A stretch of 23,690 nt of DNA from a virus: positions 1 to 23,690 of the IMG/VR virus record IMGVR_UViG_3300021964_000544. One strand, 5' to 3'. This document shows, piece after piece, positions 9,217-15,756 of the stretch. A program made the translations under genes and the position numbers. The number at the start of each line of letters is the position of its first letter. The first letter of the stretch is position 1. The notes beneath the pieces were generated by a model. It saw only the letters and a list, made by a program, of their open reading frames with translations, was not told the DNA's origin and did no database searches.

Positions 9217-12155
9217 GGAGTCAAATATTTGAGAACAATGTTTTCATATTTTCTATGTCGCAAAATAGCGCATTGAAAATCTACCTCTCCAGAAATTGTA
9301 ACTGTTTGCGTTTTCATTTCAGTTGATACGCCTCCACTTATTTTTGTCCAAACCAAATCCCAAGAATCTCCACTTGTGTTTGTTCCAGTAAGTTTAAAAG
9401 TATCGCCATTGGCCCAAGACAAAGAACCAGTACTTGTTCCCCCATTGACCAAAGGAATTGCAGTTACACTTGCGAAATAAAAGCCATGATCAACTGTGGG
9501 ATAGCCGGGAATGCTTGTTACTGGTGCGCCTAATCCTGCTGTCCCATAATGGTTTGTTCCAGTTGTTCCTTCTCGCAATGGATCAAACAAAAGTTCAAAT
9601 GTTGTTGCTGCATCTGGCAATTCCTCAAACCAACCACCTTGCGCCCAGTTTGTACCATTATTCGGAAAAGAAATAAACCCCTCGCCAGTTGTCATTGATC
9701 CAGTTGTATTCCAAACTGTCGTTCCATCCCCCGGAACTAACTCAGCAGTCCAAACAATTTCATAAGTCCATAAGGCCGTAAACGTAACGCCATCAATTGT
9801 TACATCACAAGTATTAACGGCCTCAGCAGATGCAATGGCCGTAATGTTTAAAACCATTTCTTCTGAACTATTTATTGTAGTTGTGTTTAGAGTTCCTTTG
9901 CTTATTGAAACAACGCTATCTTCTTTGAAATATGATCCAGTCAAAGTAATGTTTACAGTTGCCCCAAATGGAACGGATGATGTATCAGATGTTACGTTAA
10001 AAGGTACACCAGCCTCTGTAATTTCTTTAAGGTTATACAAATAGCTTTCACTTGCTGAATCGTAATCGATAAACAAGCCCAAACTTTCATCAGATGTCGG
10101 ATTTGCCGTTCTGTTTATATCATTAAAAACGGCTTGCATCATCTGCTCGCCATTATTGCCATTGGTGCTTGCTACTTGAATCAATCGGTCATCTAAAGAC
10201 TTGAAAATATCTCCAAAACCAGAATTTCCACCTCTGAATCTATCATTGTATTTGCTACCACTTGTTCCAGTATTAACCGATCCAAATGCAACTTTTATCC
10301 ATTGGCCACTCCATACTTCATTTTGAGCATTATAAGTTCCCCCATTAAATGCCCATCTTGAAGAATCTATATTGATTGAATTGATTGCATATATTGCTCC
10401 ATTAGTGTGCAAATCTCCTTCAATTGTTTTTATGTTATCTTCATATATATTAGCTGCCATTATCAATGGCAATATTTCGGCTTTTGCAGTTCCAGATACA
10501 CCAACTAAATTAAATTCAGGCAAAGCCCATTTTGATGTTGTATTGTTCCAATATTGAACCCCATAAACATCTGTACTTAATCCTGAATGGTAAAGATTGC
10601 CTAATGTTACATTATTACTCAAATTTGCGTTTGCCGTCAATATATCGTTTGCAAACTTTTCGGTTAAGCCATAATCTGCTGTATCGTCATTATTCCACGT
10701 ATTATAAGCAAATTCAATACCCATTCTTGATTTGGCAAAAGTATCATCAGCATAAGCAAATTTAAATCCCAATAATCTTTTTGGGTTAATATAAGTAGGA
10801 ACAATGATTGCTTCATACCAATTGGTTCGTGCAACTATTTCCAAGTTATACTCTACGATTGTTTCATTTGGCAATTTGATTTCGTAAACCACATCAATCA
10901 TTTCATTTGGATTGTTGGTTGTATCCTTGTGGGCAATTCTTGTGTAATAATTTGGTATTCCGGGATCATCCCACAAAACTATTTCGCCATCTTTTAGGTA
11001 GTAATAATCTCCAACGTCATTTTTTACCCAAAAATCAGCCCAAATCATTATATCATTGGCCCAGTAGTCTTTTTGATTGTTTTGTACTCTGGTTAATATA
11101 TCTTTAAGTTTTACAACTATTCGAGCATATTTATATGTAATATCTCCTACATCCGTATTCGACAAAGTACCCAAAACAGATGATGCCGTTGTTTTATCAA
11201 TGTAATCAATTTGGCTTTTTGTTATTTCTGTGCTTATTTCTCTAATTGCTGGCTGAAATGTATATTCAGGAATAGCCTCAAAACAACTTCTTGCATTATC
11301 TTGAACATTTATGCCGTTGCTTATTGTATAAACGCTTAATGCGCCCAATGTTTTAGTATATGCGTTAAATTCGGTACTTGCTGAATATTGATTGTCAATA
11401 TGCCTTATTACATAATAGCCATTTGTTAAAACTATTTGAGCATTAAAAACTTGTAATATTTGCCTAAGTGCATCTGTACATTTAATGTATTCATCCTCTT
11501 CACCAAAATCAGCAGTTAAAGTAAAATTTTGTATAAAACTTTCTTTCTTAAAAGATACATTGTATAAAGTTCCATCAAGTTGGTTTGTAGCTTTGTTTTC
11601 GATAGAATCTAATAAATAACGTGAAGATGCTCCATACAATGCAGTGATGTAAGTATTATTGTGCTGAATTATTTGCTTAATAATTTCAAGCCCTCTTTCT
11701 CTATTTAATGGCAAGGAAAACGTACCAAAATCAAAATCAACGGAACTTAGTAATTTTAGTCGGTCATTCGCTTTAATGTTTACTGATGGAGTACCTTGAT
11801 AACTTGCCCTTGGCAAAGTCATTTGGTCTGTTACTATAGTACCATGCCAGAATAAATCTTGCCCCTTGTAAATTACAAGTAAATAATCATTTTCCTTGCT
11901 TTCTGCAATTGCTGACAATCCATCCAATACGGCTTGTGATTCCACAAGTATATCAAAAGAACAACTTGAACCCATTATGTTGTTTTCATAGGTTGTAGAG
12001 CCTTGACCTTCATAATTAAGTTCAAAACCTCCAGTTGCTAAATTTATTTCTATTGCAGTTGCTGGTGGAATTGGAGTTAAAGTTTTGTGATGTATCTCAA
12101 CTGTGTAACTGTTTCCAGTTATGCTTTCAACTTCTCCAAAATATTGCTTTCCCAT
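9213..12155 (-). CDS. Large tail-tip protein, receptor-binding candidate
   Basis: The 980-residue product directly follows the tape measure gene (TAATG overlap), where siphoviruses encode distal-tail and tail-associated proteins. Residues 1 to about 570 are a mixed beta domain of the tail-tip type (early stretch YFGEVESITGNSYTVEIH). Residues about 717-800 look like an IPT/TIG-type immunoglobulin-like domain (GATVNITLTGSYFKEDSVVS, then CDVTIDGVTF). The last 180 residues are a Gly, Thr, Trp-rich beta region (WAQGGWFEELPDAATTFELL) resembling a jelly-roll or lectin-like domain. The likely role is forming the tail tip and contacting the host surface. Domain limits are by eye. No separate Dit and Tal genes were seen, so this one may combine those roles. 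Confidence 0.65.
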   Translation of the reverse strand: MGKQYFGEVESITGNSYTVEIHHKTLTPIPPATAIEINLATGGFELNYEGQGSTTYENNIMGSSCSFDILVESQAVLDGLSAIAESKENDYLLVIYKGQDLFWHGTIVTDQMTLPRASYQGTPSVNIKANDRLKLLSSVDFDFGTFSLPLNRERGLEIIKQIIQHNNTYITALYGASSRYLLDSIENKATNQLDGTLYNVSFKKESFIQNFTLTADFGEEDEYIKCTDALRQILQVFNAQIVLTNGYYVIRHIDNQYSASTEFNAYTKTLGALSVYTISNGINVQDNARSCFEAIPEYTFQPAIREISTEITKSQIDYIDKTTASSVLGTLSNTDVGDITYKYARIVVKLKDILTRVQNNQKDYWANDIMIWADFWVKNDVGDYYYLKDGEIVLWDDPGIPNYYTRIAHKDTTNNPNEMIDVVYEIKLPNETIVEYNLEIVARTNWYEAIIVPTYINPKRLLGFKFAYADDTFAKSRMGIEFAYNTWNNDDTADYGLTEKFANDILTANANLSNNVTLGNLYHSGLSTDVYGVQYWNNTTSKWALPEFNLVGVSGTAKAEILPLIMAANIYEDNIKTIEGDLHTNGAIYAINSINIDSSRWAFNGGTYNAQNEVWSGQWIKVAFGSVNTGTSGSKYNDRFRGGNSGFGDIFKSLDDRLIQVASTNGNNGEQMMQAVFNDINRTANPTSDESLGLFIDYDSASESYLYNLKEITEAGVPFNVTSDTSSVPFGATVNITLTGSYFKEDSVVSISKGTLNTTTINSSEEMVLNITAIASAEAVNTCDVTIDGVTFTALWTYEIVWTAELVPGDGTTVWNTTGSMTTGEGFISFPNNGTNWAQGGWFEELPDAATTFELLFDPLREGTTGTNHYGTAGLGAPVTSIPGYPTVDHGFYFASVTAIPLVNGGTSTGSLSWANGDTFKLTGTNTSGDSWDLVWTKISGGVSTEMKTQTVTISGEVDFQCAILRHRKYENIVLKYLTP

Positions 12156-14248
12156 TATGCCCTGCTATTATCCTTTAATCCTCTGCCTAAAACACCAACT
12201 AAATCTCTGCCCTCAATTCTGAATTTTACATTGCCACCATTGTTATTATTTCCAACTGCATCTGCTATCATTCCACGAAGATACGAACTTCTAATGGCAA
12301 CCTCTGGATCATTGTTTGCAGTGTTATATTCAGCAAGCATTCCGAAAGTAGTTCCTTTCATTACTCCACCTTCAGCCAATGCCGTAGGTTTTGCAATATC
12401 TTTACTCATTGCAGCCTTCATTGTAGAGCCAGCTAAGGTCAAACCAAAACCAGCAGCAATTGCAGCACCAGCACCTCCAAATTGAACCATAGCAGTATCA
12501 AAGCCAAGTTTGGCAATACCAGCAGTTATCATCAATTGACCCATATTAGTCAAAAAGTCTGCCATTCCAACCATTACAGTATCTCCCATTGCTTTGCCCA
12601 TATCTTCATTGTTGGCAATTGCTTGACCTAAATTTGTAGCCAATGCCGTAGTCATTTGACTGGATGTATCTTCCAATAATTTACCTACTTCAACGTTTAC
12701 CTGAACTGCATTTGCTGCTGCCATTTCAGCTGCTTCTTTTTCTGCCTTTTCTTTTTCTTTTGCTAATCTTTTTTGTTCGGCTGCTTGAATTTTTGCTTCT
12801 TTTGCTTTTTCAGATGTTAGCTTTTTTCCATAAGATATTTGAGCATCTAATAAGTTAGATTCAATGCTTTTAACATCTTTGCCATAGCTTTCATATACTG
12901 AAATAATCTCAGCCAGCATACTGCTTTTATCTCTAAAGTTTTGTTCATCAAATTGCTTTTGAGTTAATTGCCCCTCTAATAATCTTGATTTAGTTGTATT
13001 GTTTACTTCTGAATAGTAATTATCAATTTCTTTTAAAGCCTTATCGAAATCAATATCAGCAATTTCTTGCTCAGTTAATATTTTATCTTTTGATTCTTTT
13101 GTTACTTTTGGTGCATCTGGTATTTTTGTTTCTTCAAATTCAAAAAAATCATCTGGACTACTTTCGGCTAAATCTGTAATTGCCTTTTCAATACCCTCAA
13201 TTTCTGTTGCTACACCAGCAAGCCTTTGACTTGTATAATCAATATCTGCCGTACCTAAACTAAAAACTGCCGTTGCCGATGTTTTAACTATATCTAACCA
13301 AGATACACCTTGATCGTTTAATTCTTTTTGCTTTTCGGTTAGTGCCTCAGTCAATGCAGTCATTTTTGCCTTATTAATTATGGCTTTTGTTGCTGCTTCC
13401 GTTGCTGCTGCTCCTTTTTTTGTTAAAAACGCTTCATATGAAAGATTTTTGAAATGTCTTGGTGATGCTTTTTGCAATTTTTGATAAGCACCTTTGCGAT
13501 TCTCTAAACTTAGGTTCAAATTATTGGCTTGTTTCGCTAACAACTTGACTTTTACAATGTCACTGGTTGCTGCCTCAGCCCCTTTTTTCATTGCATCATT
13601 TACCAAATCTTGCGCAATTGCCACATGGTCTAAAGATTTTTGCAATTGATATGCAGCCGTAGCAATACCAGCAATTGCAGTTGCAGCAAAAAAGATAGGA
13701 TTTGCCTTTATAACTATTCCTAAAGCCTTAAAACTATCTCCTAAAGTTTCAATACTATCCAAACTTTGAGCAAATGACATTGCAGCTTGAACCTTTAGCA
13801 TCATTTTTTGAGTTTCTTCGCTTTCATCTCCAAATAAAGCCATAGCAGATGTACCCATTTGAACGGCTTGGCCAGCACCTTTAACGGCCTTTGCCATAGA
13901 CTTCCAAGGTAATGCAGTTGAATGCATATCCACCAATTCCATGATGTCCTTTTCTTTGTCCTTTAATGCTCCAGCTTGCTTTAAAACCTCTCCAAAAGCC
14001 TTAGAACCTTCCATGCCAAACTGCGACATAGTACCCAAAAGGTTTTCCATTTGTCGATTGGCTTGCTTCAAGGTTTTGGCCTTGCCAATGCGATCCATTT
14101 GGGCTTGGATTATTGCCGTTTGCTTTTTGGCCTCTCCTTCTAATTTTTTGCCAGCACCATGACTGCTTTTTACTGCTTCATCAAATCCTTTTTGGATTTG
14201 GCTTATATCTATTCCAAGACTTAAATTAATGTCGCTTTTCCTACTCAT
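12155..14248 (-). CDS. Tail tape measure protein
   Basis: The 697-residue product starts INLSLGIDISQIQKGFDEAV, typical of tape measure proteins, and is mostly helical with long coiled coils (for example KQTAIIQAQMDRIGKAKTLK and a Lys/Glu/Ala-rich block near residue 510). Two hydrophobic stretches (IKANPIFFAATAIAGIATAA near 180-200 and GGAGAAIAAGFGLTLAGSTM near 590-615) are expected for insertion into the host membrane during DNA ejection. At about 1.5 angstrom per residue the tail should be roughly 105 nm long (inference). It starts within the end of the tail terminator gene (8-bp overlap) and is followed by the tail-tip gene. Confidence 0.9.
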   Translation of the reverse strand: MSRKSDINLSLGIDISQIQKGFDEAVKSSHGAGKKLEGEAKKQTAIIQAQMDRIGKAKTLKQANRQMENLLGTMSQFGMEGSKAFGEVLKQAGALKDKEKDIMELVDMHSTALPWKSMAKAVKGAGQAVQMGTSAMALFGDESEETQKMMLKVQAAMSFAQSLDSIETLGDSFKALGIVIKANPIFFAATAIAGIATAAYQLQKSLDHVAIAQDLVNDAMKKGAEAATSDIVKVKLLAKQANNLNLSLENRKGAYQKLQKASPRHFKNLSYEAFLTKKGAAATEAATKAIINKAKMTALTEALTEKQKELNDQGVSWLDIVKTSATAVFSLGTADIDYTSQRLAGVATEIEGIEKAITDLAESSPDDFFEFEETKIPDAPKVTKESKDKILTEQEIADIDFDKALKEIDNYYSEVNNTTKSRLLEGQLTQKQFDEQNFRDKSSMLAEIISVYESYGKDVKSIESNLLDAQISYGKKLTSEKAKEAKIQAAEQKRLAKEKEKAEKEAAEMAAANAVQVNVEVGKLLEDTSSQMTTALATNLGQAIANNEDMGKAMGDTVMVGMADFLTNMGQLMITAGIAKLGFDTAMVQFGGAGAAIAAGFGLTLAGSTMKAAMSKDIAKPTALAEGGVMKGTTFGMLAEYNTANNDPEVAIRSSYLRGMIADAVGNNNNGGNVKFRIEGRDLVGVLGRGLKDNSRA

Positions 14249-14636
14249 TATATGTAATATTAAAGTCTAAAATAAAATGCACCAACCCAAAACCATCTGC
14301 AAAGTCTTCTTCTTGATCTATTTGGTTAAGTAGTTTCGTACCTTGAACCACTACACTTCCAAACGTTCCAACTTTATCGGATAATGCCGTTTTGATGGCA
14401 TCTGATAAAATAAAAGCATTGTTGTAATCGTTTTCAAAAACGTTTACTTGCACCCTTGATTGGTAGCTGGTAAAACCAGACTTTGAATTGTAAGGTACAT
14501 TGCTTATTGTTTGGTAAGTAATGCAAGGAAAGGCAGTCTTATCAGGCACTCGTAATGGATAAATTCGATTCGCAACTATATCAGTAACTGCACTTGCAGA
14601 TGATAATAAATTGTATATTGCTTTTCCTTGCTTCAC
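14241..14636 (-). CDS. Tail terminator / tail completion protein (DUF3168-like)
   Basis: The 131-residue product matches the DUF3168 (gp17/gpU-type) tail terminator family: IYNLLSSASAVTDIVANRIY near the start, PCITYQTIS, then YQSRVQVNVFENDYNNAFIL and a C-terminal beta strand (VHFILDFNITYNE). Such proteins cap the tail tube after it reaches full length. The start codon is GTG 14636, immediately after the stop of the second chaperone frame. The position is odd: in lambda- and HK97-type phages this gene normally precedes the major tail protein, while here it lies between the chaperones and the tape measure. Confidence 0.78.
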   Translation of the reverse strand: MKQGKAIYNLLSSASAVTDIVANRIYPLRVPDKTAFPCITYQTISNVPYNSKSGFTSYQSRVQVNVFENDYNNAFILSDAIKTALSDKVGTFGSVVVQGTKLLNQIDQEEDFADGFGLVHFILDFNITYNE

Positions 14637-14918
14637 TTAATTCAATGTTAGTTTTTCAAATTTGTCTTTGTTTGCCTTAATCCATTCCAGCGTTCCTTGA
14701 GTTTTTTTATCCCAATACAACGGCCACAATTTCTTTGGGCTTATGTTCTTTTTTGTGTGTGGCGAAACTGAGAAATAAGCCAATGTTCTGGCAATTTCAT
14801 AAATCTCCTTTGTCCTTTCTGTTTCAGCTTTGCGCTTGCCTTCAATTGCTAAAGTCAAATACTCTGGACTACTTTCCTCGTATTCTTTTTGTCGCAAACC
14901 TAATTCCCCAAAGGCCAC
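14637..14918 (-). CDS. Tail assembly chaperone, -1 frameshift extension (T-like part)
   Basis: The frame codes for 93 residues from a nominal GTG at 14918 (ELGLRQKEYEESSPEYLTLA and on), but the frame has no stop as far back as 14966 and lies in the -1 register of the upstream chaperone. It is therefore most likely expressed only as the C-terminal part of a fused protein made by -1 frameshifting at 14966-14972. The fusion would run from 15307 to 14637 and have about 223 residues. The pattern YEESSPEYLTLAIEGKRKAE followed by a basic helical end resembles the second chaperone frame of other siphoviruses (lambda gpGT type), which holds the tape measure during tail assembly. Confidence 0.72.
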   Translation of the reverse strand: MAFGELGLRQKEYEESSPEYLTLAIEGKRKAETERTKEIYEIARTLAYFSVSPHTKKNISPKKLWPLYWDKKTQGTLEWIKANKDKFEKLTLN

Positions 14919-14942
14919 AGTTTTAAGTAGTTTAAAGGTTGT

Positions 14943-14972
14943 GGGGACTACTTTGCCCCCTTCGCCTTTTTT
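14943..14972 (-). promoter_or_regulatory. Programmed -1 frameshift site with downstream hairpin
   Basis: The slippery heptamer A-AAA-AAG occupies 14972-14966, in the correct phase for codons GAA, AAA, AAG of the first chaperone. Five bases downstream, GGGGG (14960-14956) can pair with UCCCC (14947-14943), four G-C pairs and one G-U around an eight-base loop. The -1 frame is open from there into the second chaperone frame. Confidence 0.8.
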
Positions 14973-15307
14973 TCTACTTTTTCATCTGAGTTGTCAGTAA
15001 AAAACCCAAGCCAAGATTTTGTAAATACTTCGCTAAATGGGCTTAAATCTGCAAACTTTGTAACTTTTTGACCAAGTTTTTCAATTGATTCAAAAGGGCA
15101 ATCGATTTCGTTTTCAATGCTTGCACAAAGTAAACCATGATAAGCAATAATGCGACTGCTTTTAAGCAATGCAGTTATGTTGCCAGACATCATCTTTTGC
15201 CCCATTTCCTCAATATTGTCAACGCCCATATCTTCTGCTATCTTTTCAAATGATAACATATTATAGTGAACATCGTATTCTTGATCTAAAAATATAATCT
15301 TATCCAT
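14948..15307 (-). CDS. Tail assembly chaperone, zero-frame product (G-like)
   Basis: The 119-residue product (DKIIFLDQEYDVHYNMLSFE...) is encoded between the major tail protein and the tape measure, where siphoviruses carry the chaperone that coats the tape measure before tube assembly. It is mostly helical and ends in a Lys/Glu-rich tail (KVEKKAKGAK). The A-rich stretch in that tail contains a -1 slippery heptamer, so a minor share of ribosomes should make a longer G-T type fusion. Starts at ATG 15307, 11 bp after the tail protein stop. Confidence 0.75.
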   Translation of the reverse strand: MDKIIFLDQEYDVHYNMLSFEKIAEDMGVDNIEEMGQKMMSGNITALLKSSRIIAYHGLLCASIENEIDCPFESIEKLGQKVTKFADLSPFSEVFTKSWLGFFTDNSDEKVEKKAKGAK

Positions 15308-15318
15308 ATTTTCTTAAA

Positions 15319-15756
15319 TTATGCTGGTACTGCTGCCTGTGCTACTGCGCCAGTAATTGTAATATCTCCAGTAAAACTTGCTGCATCATTATCTGGTGCG
15401 CTTAAAGATAAACCACCTAATAACGCTGAACCAGTGTATTTTCTGTCTGCCGTTACATTTGTTGTAAAAACAACTGTTAAGTTAGTTCCAGCAACCATTG
15501 CATCGTATAATTCCTCAAAAGAATATTCCGTTGTACCTACTGATGCACTCTCCTCAAATCTTCCTTCAAATGATCCAGATGCACCAAAATGTCCGTACAT
15601 AAATTCTTTACTTCCAGCACTACTTTTGCTTGTTACTTCGATCAAATCTTTAGTAAACGAAATATCGTTGCTTACTAAGTTTGCAATCGGCTTTAGTGTT
15701 CCACTATCATCTACAAAAAGACGTAGTAGAGTTCCATTAATTGTTCCTGATGACAT
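15319..15756 (-). CDS. Major tail (tube) protein
   Basis: The 145-residue product matches the TP901-1-type major tail protein family: an N-terminal GTLLRLFVDDSGTLKPIANL, then SNDISFTKDLIEVTSKSSAG, then the loop-strand region GSFEGRFEESA, and the C-terminal DAASFTGDITITGAV. It forms the hexameric tube of the tail. Its 14-bp leader (15757-15770) is nearly pure A and T on the minus strand, A-rich ahead of the ATG, which is the form of efficient translation start in Flavobacteriia and suits a highly expressed protein. Confidence 0.88.
   Translation of the reverse strand: MSSGTINGTLLRLFVDDSGTLKPIANLVSNDISFTKDLIEVTSKSSAGSKEFMYGHFGASGSFEGRFEESASVGTTEYSFEELYDAMVAGTNLTVVFTTNVTADRKYTGSALLGGLSLSAPDNDAASFTGDITITGAVAQAAVPA

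Follow-up and report, generated by a model that had tools for sequence, protein, structure and literature searches.

The window is a stretch of viral DNA of 23,690 bases (IMG/VR record IMGVR_UViG_3300021964_000544, positions 1 to 23,690), in which capsid, head-tail and tail genes lie in series on the minus strand. Pfam identified the capsid (PF05065) and head completion (PF05521) genes among the structural genes on that strand. The tail region contains the following features, in the direction of transcription:

15319 to 15756, minus strand: major tail tube protein (PF06199, 2.3e-7; phrog_1407, 1.9e-24), directly upstream of TAC1
14948 to 15307, minus strand: TAC1, first tail assembly chaperone frame (gpG-like), 119 aa, ATG at 15307, TAG at 14950-14948
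14637 to 14972, minus strand: TAC2, the -1 frame from the slip site to its TAA at 14639-14637, 111 residues
14966 to 14972, minus strand: slippery heptamer A AAA AAG, phased as X XXY YYZ relative to the TAC1 codons, as a -1 shift requires
14961 to 14965, minus strand: spacer GCGAA, 5 nt, between heptamer and hairpin
14943 to 14960, minus strand: putative stimulatory hairpin GGGGGC-AAAGUA-GUCCCC, 6-bp stem and 6-nt loop
14916 to 14918, minus strand: GTG at which a standard annotation would begin TAC2 (nominal start), within predicted helix 1 of TAC2
14241 to 14636, minus strand: tail terminator / tail completion gp17-like protein (PF11367, 2.6e-13; phrog_347, 2.2e-16), adjoining TAC2
12155 to 14248, minus strand: 697-aa probable tape measure protein, assigned from its size and position (no match to a named family; phrog_30292, unknown function)

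The gene order is thus tail tube, TAC1, TAC2, tail terminator and probable tape measure. Both chaperone frames lie between the major tail protein and the probable tape measure, as the G/GT type requires, with the terminator gene intervening between TAC2 and the tape measure; the terminator gene starts with a GTG directly at the TAC2 stop. The last codons of TAC1 read GTA GAA AAA AAG GCG AAG GGG GCA AAG TAG. An initial annotation, made from the letters of the window, had proposed that a -1 frameshift on the heptamer joins the two frames, and its structural particulars hold: the heptamer at 14972-14966 is in phase with the TAC1 codons, a GC stem of 6 bp begins 5 nt past it, and the second frame, in the -1 register, is free of stops through the GTG at 14918 and on to the TAA at 14639-14637. 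Read from the slip site, the -1 frame gives KK-GEGG-KVVPTTFKLLKT-V, the last residue being that of the nominal GTG. The products are likewise of the sizes given there, 119 aa for TAC1 and 223 aa for the fusion of TAC1 and TAC2 on a -1 shift.

In the hairpin, GGGGGC (14960-14955) pairs with GUCCCC (14948-14943), and the TAC1 stop codon falls at the loop/3' arm. Heptamer, 5-nt spacer and putative 6-bp stem correspond to a -1 signal of the dnaX kind. A 31-mer containing the hairpin folds at -11.5 kcal/mol, with a z of -2.5 against dinucleotide shuffles (3 of 200 equally stable), and the hairpin is unremarkable in longer stretches (z -0.96 for 61 nt, -0.78 for 86 nt and -1.6 for 91 nt). It never varies in the seven close genomes and shows no covariation. 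A contribution of the hairpin to slippage is plausible.

TAC1 is encoded by six other virus contigs at 84-95% identity, and a search of viral contigs with the TAC1 alignment returned nothing beyond the same six loci. Heptamer, spacer, hairpin and register are identical in all seven close genomes, the window included. The 671-nt cassette has 127 variable columns among these genomes, and none of them lies within 14975-14941, a 35-nt segment that spans heptamer, spacer and hairpin and is the longest invariant run of the cassette. When columns were shuffled within frame and codon-position classes, a run of at least 35 nt arose somewhere in 710 of 20,000 shuffles; the run alone is moderately unusual, and its weight comes from its position on the element. 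Counted over the three codon positions of the -1 frame, the sites that vary number 0, 0 and 2 from the TAC1 TAG to the nominal GTG, and 5, 4 and 41 past the GTG. With changes at third positions only, the stretch ahead of the GTG behaves as a protein read in the -1 frame, although it has just two changes.

More distant relatives were reached through TAC2. The TAC2 profile found 47 loci in viral contigs and one locus, in a Porphyromonadaceae MAG, in named bacterial genomes; TAC2 relatives occurred in 3 of 395 Bacteroidota genomes (one being the same MAG) and are thus rare in the genomes drawn. The isolates related by TAC2 are Cellulophaga phage phi39:1 and the Bacteroides phages F2, F4 and Bacuni_F1, to which a faecal phage sequence is added. 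TAC1, the tail tube and the tape measure of the window had no match among phage isolate records. Judging from the relatives, the host phylum is probably Bacteroidota. TAC2 also matches PHROG 16333 by HMM (E 2.1e-11, residues 20-109); this family is matched by 22 of the 22 members of alignment A5, and PHROG 7377 by 8 of the 22. Both families are labelled 'unknown function'. PHROG 16333 probably represents the -1-frame half of frameshifted tail chaperones, and PHROG 7377 perhaps has the same role.

Both genes are visible in 54 of 56 records tallied; the other two (L039, L048) start too near TAC2 to reveal TAC1 and were counted as not seen. The second frame is in the -1 register with an in-phase heptamer in 53 of the 54, and in the +1/-2 register in one, phi39:1. 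The initial annotation had named, as evidence against itself, relatives that keep both genes separately and have lost the heptamer; none of the seven close genomes is of this kind, and among the wider records the single departure is phi39:1 with its run of A8. Grouping of the records at 60% TAC2 identity gives 14 lineages, and 28 of the 54 assessable records come from a single one (L032; 30 members, 28 assessable). Thirteen of the lineages have the -1 register, and every one of the 13 carries an X XXY YYZ heptamer in phase within the overlap. Several entries are duplicates: L064 and L075 are the L012 record, L069 equals L068, L008-L011 are the same contigs as others, and L074 has the same junction as L072. 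L027 and L068 each have a further open frame in the +1/-2 register, of 78 and 112 aa respectively; these two frames were set aside manually, since it is the -1 open reading frame that is TAC1-like (by alignment for L027, by eye against Bacuni for L068).

The heptamer differs among lineages. It is A AAA AAG in the window clade, L020 and L068; A AAA AAA in L058, the L062 group, L070, L072/L074 and L073; G GGA AAG in the L032 group and L076; G GGA AAC in L071; G GGA AAT in L027; and C CCA AAC in the L028 group. L020, with a capsid only 30% identical, still has the same heptamer as the window in the same phase. A stimulatory hairpin is not general: when the 60-nt stretches of 12 sequences were compared, z was -3.96 for L029, -2.65 for L058, -2.61 for L020, -2.02 for L071 and -0.69 for the window, and it was above -0.5 for 7 of the 12, the hairpin being absent in some lineages such as the L032 group (the L068 stretch was taken one base short of the end of A AAA AAG). 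In L029 (4986-5045), and also in L028, L030 and L031, a long and stable stem begins 5 nt past C CCA AAC and is a stronger candidate stimulator than the hairpin of the window.

The identity of TAC1 was approached through structure. Among solved structures, a model built from 17 sequences (pLDDT 86) is closest to the tail assembly chaperone of phage HK97, gp13 (PDB 2ob9; Z 5.4, 82 residues aligned, 3.3 A, 7% identity). On realignment of 154 chains, 2ob9 came first and the next row, an unrelated protein, had Z 3.5; a Foldseek search with the model gave nothing significant. For a mostly helical protein, Z 5.4 is supportive and not proof, as the modelled similarity may be merely a common arrangement. 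At E 0.01, neither Pfam nor PHROGs has a family that matches the TAC1 of the window. Of the 17 members of the TAC1 family, one weakly matches Pfam Phage_TAC_12 (3.7e-4) and one weakly matches the PHROG 'tail chaperone protein' (phrog_183, 0.009). A sequence-profile search of solved structures with alignments A4 (TAC1) and A5 returned no chaperone and no meaningful match. The TAC2 model (pLDDT 76, pTM 0.53) has no useful structural neighbour, which says nothing on the novelty of its fold. In the record of phi39:1, gp14-gp18 and gp22 bear a label of MS/MS detection and the tape measure is described as a virion component; gp19 and gp20, the counterparts of TAC1 and TAC2, do not carry the MS/MS label, which is consistent with chaperones that leave the virion. 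The G and GT proteins of lambda are not in virions, according to an excerpt of PMC5009743. Gene order and the modest fold match to HK97 together support the identification as chaperones.

The cassette resembles lambda G/GT in lying between the genes for the major tail protein and the tape measure, and in having a second frame in the -1 register that is accessible from a heptamer placed in phase shortly before the first frame ends. In the lambda record, G GGA AAG was verified to lie in phase 15 nt before the G stop, the same distance as in the window. The lambda heptamer is that of the L032 lineage, whereas the window has A AAA AAG; the window also differs in its terminator gene between TAC2 and the tape measure and in its short hairpin, and no resemblance between lambda T and TAC2 was noted by eye. 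HK97 is similar in that its record notes a -1 frameshift, but gp13 has no detectable sequence similarity to TAC1 and the structural match is of modest strength. Escherichia coli dnaX shares A AAA AAG and a downstream hairpin (PMC5009743 and PMC3711429, both in excerpt), and the site ranks with the most shift-prone ones of that bacterium (PMC5009743, same excerpt). However, dnaX is a different gene with a different purpose, its shift gives a shorter product where that of the window gives a longer one, and no upstream Shine-Dalgarno-like stimulator was noted by eye in the window. Bacuni_F1, F4 and phi39:1 have the order TAC1, TAC2, tape measure with a homologous TAC2; the gene before TAC1 is annotated as tail tube in Bacuni and as an unnamed structural protein in phi39:1. 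Unlike the window, Bacuni_F1 and F4 have A AAA AAA as heptamer, and in Bacuni and phi39:1 TAC2 and the tape measure are adjacent, with no terminator gene between them. In Bacuni_F1 (L072, 2399-2508) the second gene as deposited begins within the first, at locus 2450, ahead of the slip site A AAA AAA, so that the record shows an overlapping gene and no fusion.

TAC2 might instead be a separate gene, started at the GTG at 14918 by coupling to TAC1 termination, with the heptamer incidental. The GTG is present in the window and kept in all seven close genomes, a mechanical annotation yields a separate GTG gene there, and the public records of relatives hold two separate proteins. Yet the stretch ahead of the GTG evolves as a -1-frame protein, and the GTG itself falls inside predicted helix 1 of the TAC2 model (residues 13-24). 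Independent expression would moreover require a start codon before the conserved part of TAC2. In L020 the TAC2 frame has no ATG, GTG or TTG before residue 74 of 110, so that a frame change is needed for its expression there; in L029-L031 the sole such codon ahead of residue 81 is a TTG at residue 15. Together with the retention of heptamer and register in 13 of the 14 lineages, this makes an independent start very improbable.

Slippage of the polymerase in place of the ribosome would act on the same letters, the site being a run of A7 that extends to A8 or A9 in some relatives (phi39:1, L068, L070). Transcriptional slippage is caused by longer A runs, An with n > 7, as stated in an excerpt of PMC3711429, and A7 falls short of this length. 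The explanation is also inapplicable to homologues with G GGA AAG, G GGA AAT, G GGA AAC or C CCA AAC, and the layout of spacer and hairpin fits a ribosome, so that for the window it is held to be extremely improbable. As for a chance heptamer and overlap at an A-rich gene end, codon shuffling of the gene end puts a heptamer in phase within this overlap about 7% of the time, and the heptamer alone is therefore not rare; however, codon shuffling of the TAC1 of each lineage gives 0.98 lineages expected with one against the 13 observed, and the longest invariant run of the cassette spans the element. An accident of this kind is scarcely credible.

The cassette very probably encodes a tail assembly chaperone of the lambda G/GT type made by -1 programmed ribosomal frameshifting. 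The majority of ribosomes would end at the TAC1 TAG and release the 119-aa chaperone. A minority, probably a few per cent if other phages are a guide, would shift back by one base at A AAA AAG, in a tandem slip in which two lysyl-tRNAs re-pair on AAA AAA, probably aided by the short hairpin, and would continue through TAC2 to give the 223-aa fusion. Frameshifting reached 6 and 7% in two constructs of other tail chaperones (PMC3711429, in excerpt). Shifting on AAG is favoured where the only tRNA-Lys has a UUU anticodon (PMC5009743, in excerpt). By analogy with lambda, the TAC1 part would coat the tape measure protein, the TAC2 part would recruit tail tube subunits, and neither product would remain in the virion.

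The tail chaperone frameshift is itself established, and this cassette is an added case. It is described as widely conserved in long-tailed phages in an excerpt of PMC5009743, and the 28 phages of Xu et al. are cited for it in an excerpt of PMC10885494. No description of a frameshift of this type in Bacteroidota phages was found in the open-licence literature searched. The cassette indicates that the mechanism reaches through a divergent family of probably Bacteroidota phages, and that a tool-free reading identified what is very probably a real recoding site. That reading had also expected annotation to miss the fusion, and the records of cultured relatives do give two separate hypothetical proteins; the public records of the family still leave the two unconnected, and annotation pipelines would benefit from taking the fusion into account.

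Cellulophaga phage phi39:1 (L012 4420-4440, NC_021804.1) is the only lineage of the 14 outside the -1 register, its gp19 and gp20 being arranged in the +1/-2 register around a run of A8. The nearest relative found, L076, is 53% identical and in the -1 register with G GGA AAG. Either the direction has changed in phi39:1 (a -2/+1 or a transcriptional shift), or the record has a homopolymer-length problem. As a tentative reading, somewhat on the doubtful side, this may be one Bacteroidota-phage chaperone family in which the fusion has been kept while slip site (A AAA AAG, A AAA AAA, G GGA AAN, C CCA AAC), stimulator (strong, weak, none) and, in phi39:1, even direction were repeatedly replaced, the +1/-2 shift on A8 there perhaps occurring by -2 or transcriptional slippage. 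One contig, IMGVR_UViG_3300020469_000117 (36.5 kb), contains two related but distinct TAC cassettes, L047 and L049, which have the same orientation and about 28 kb between them, and is either a chimeric assembly or a pair of adjacent phages.
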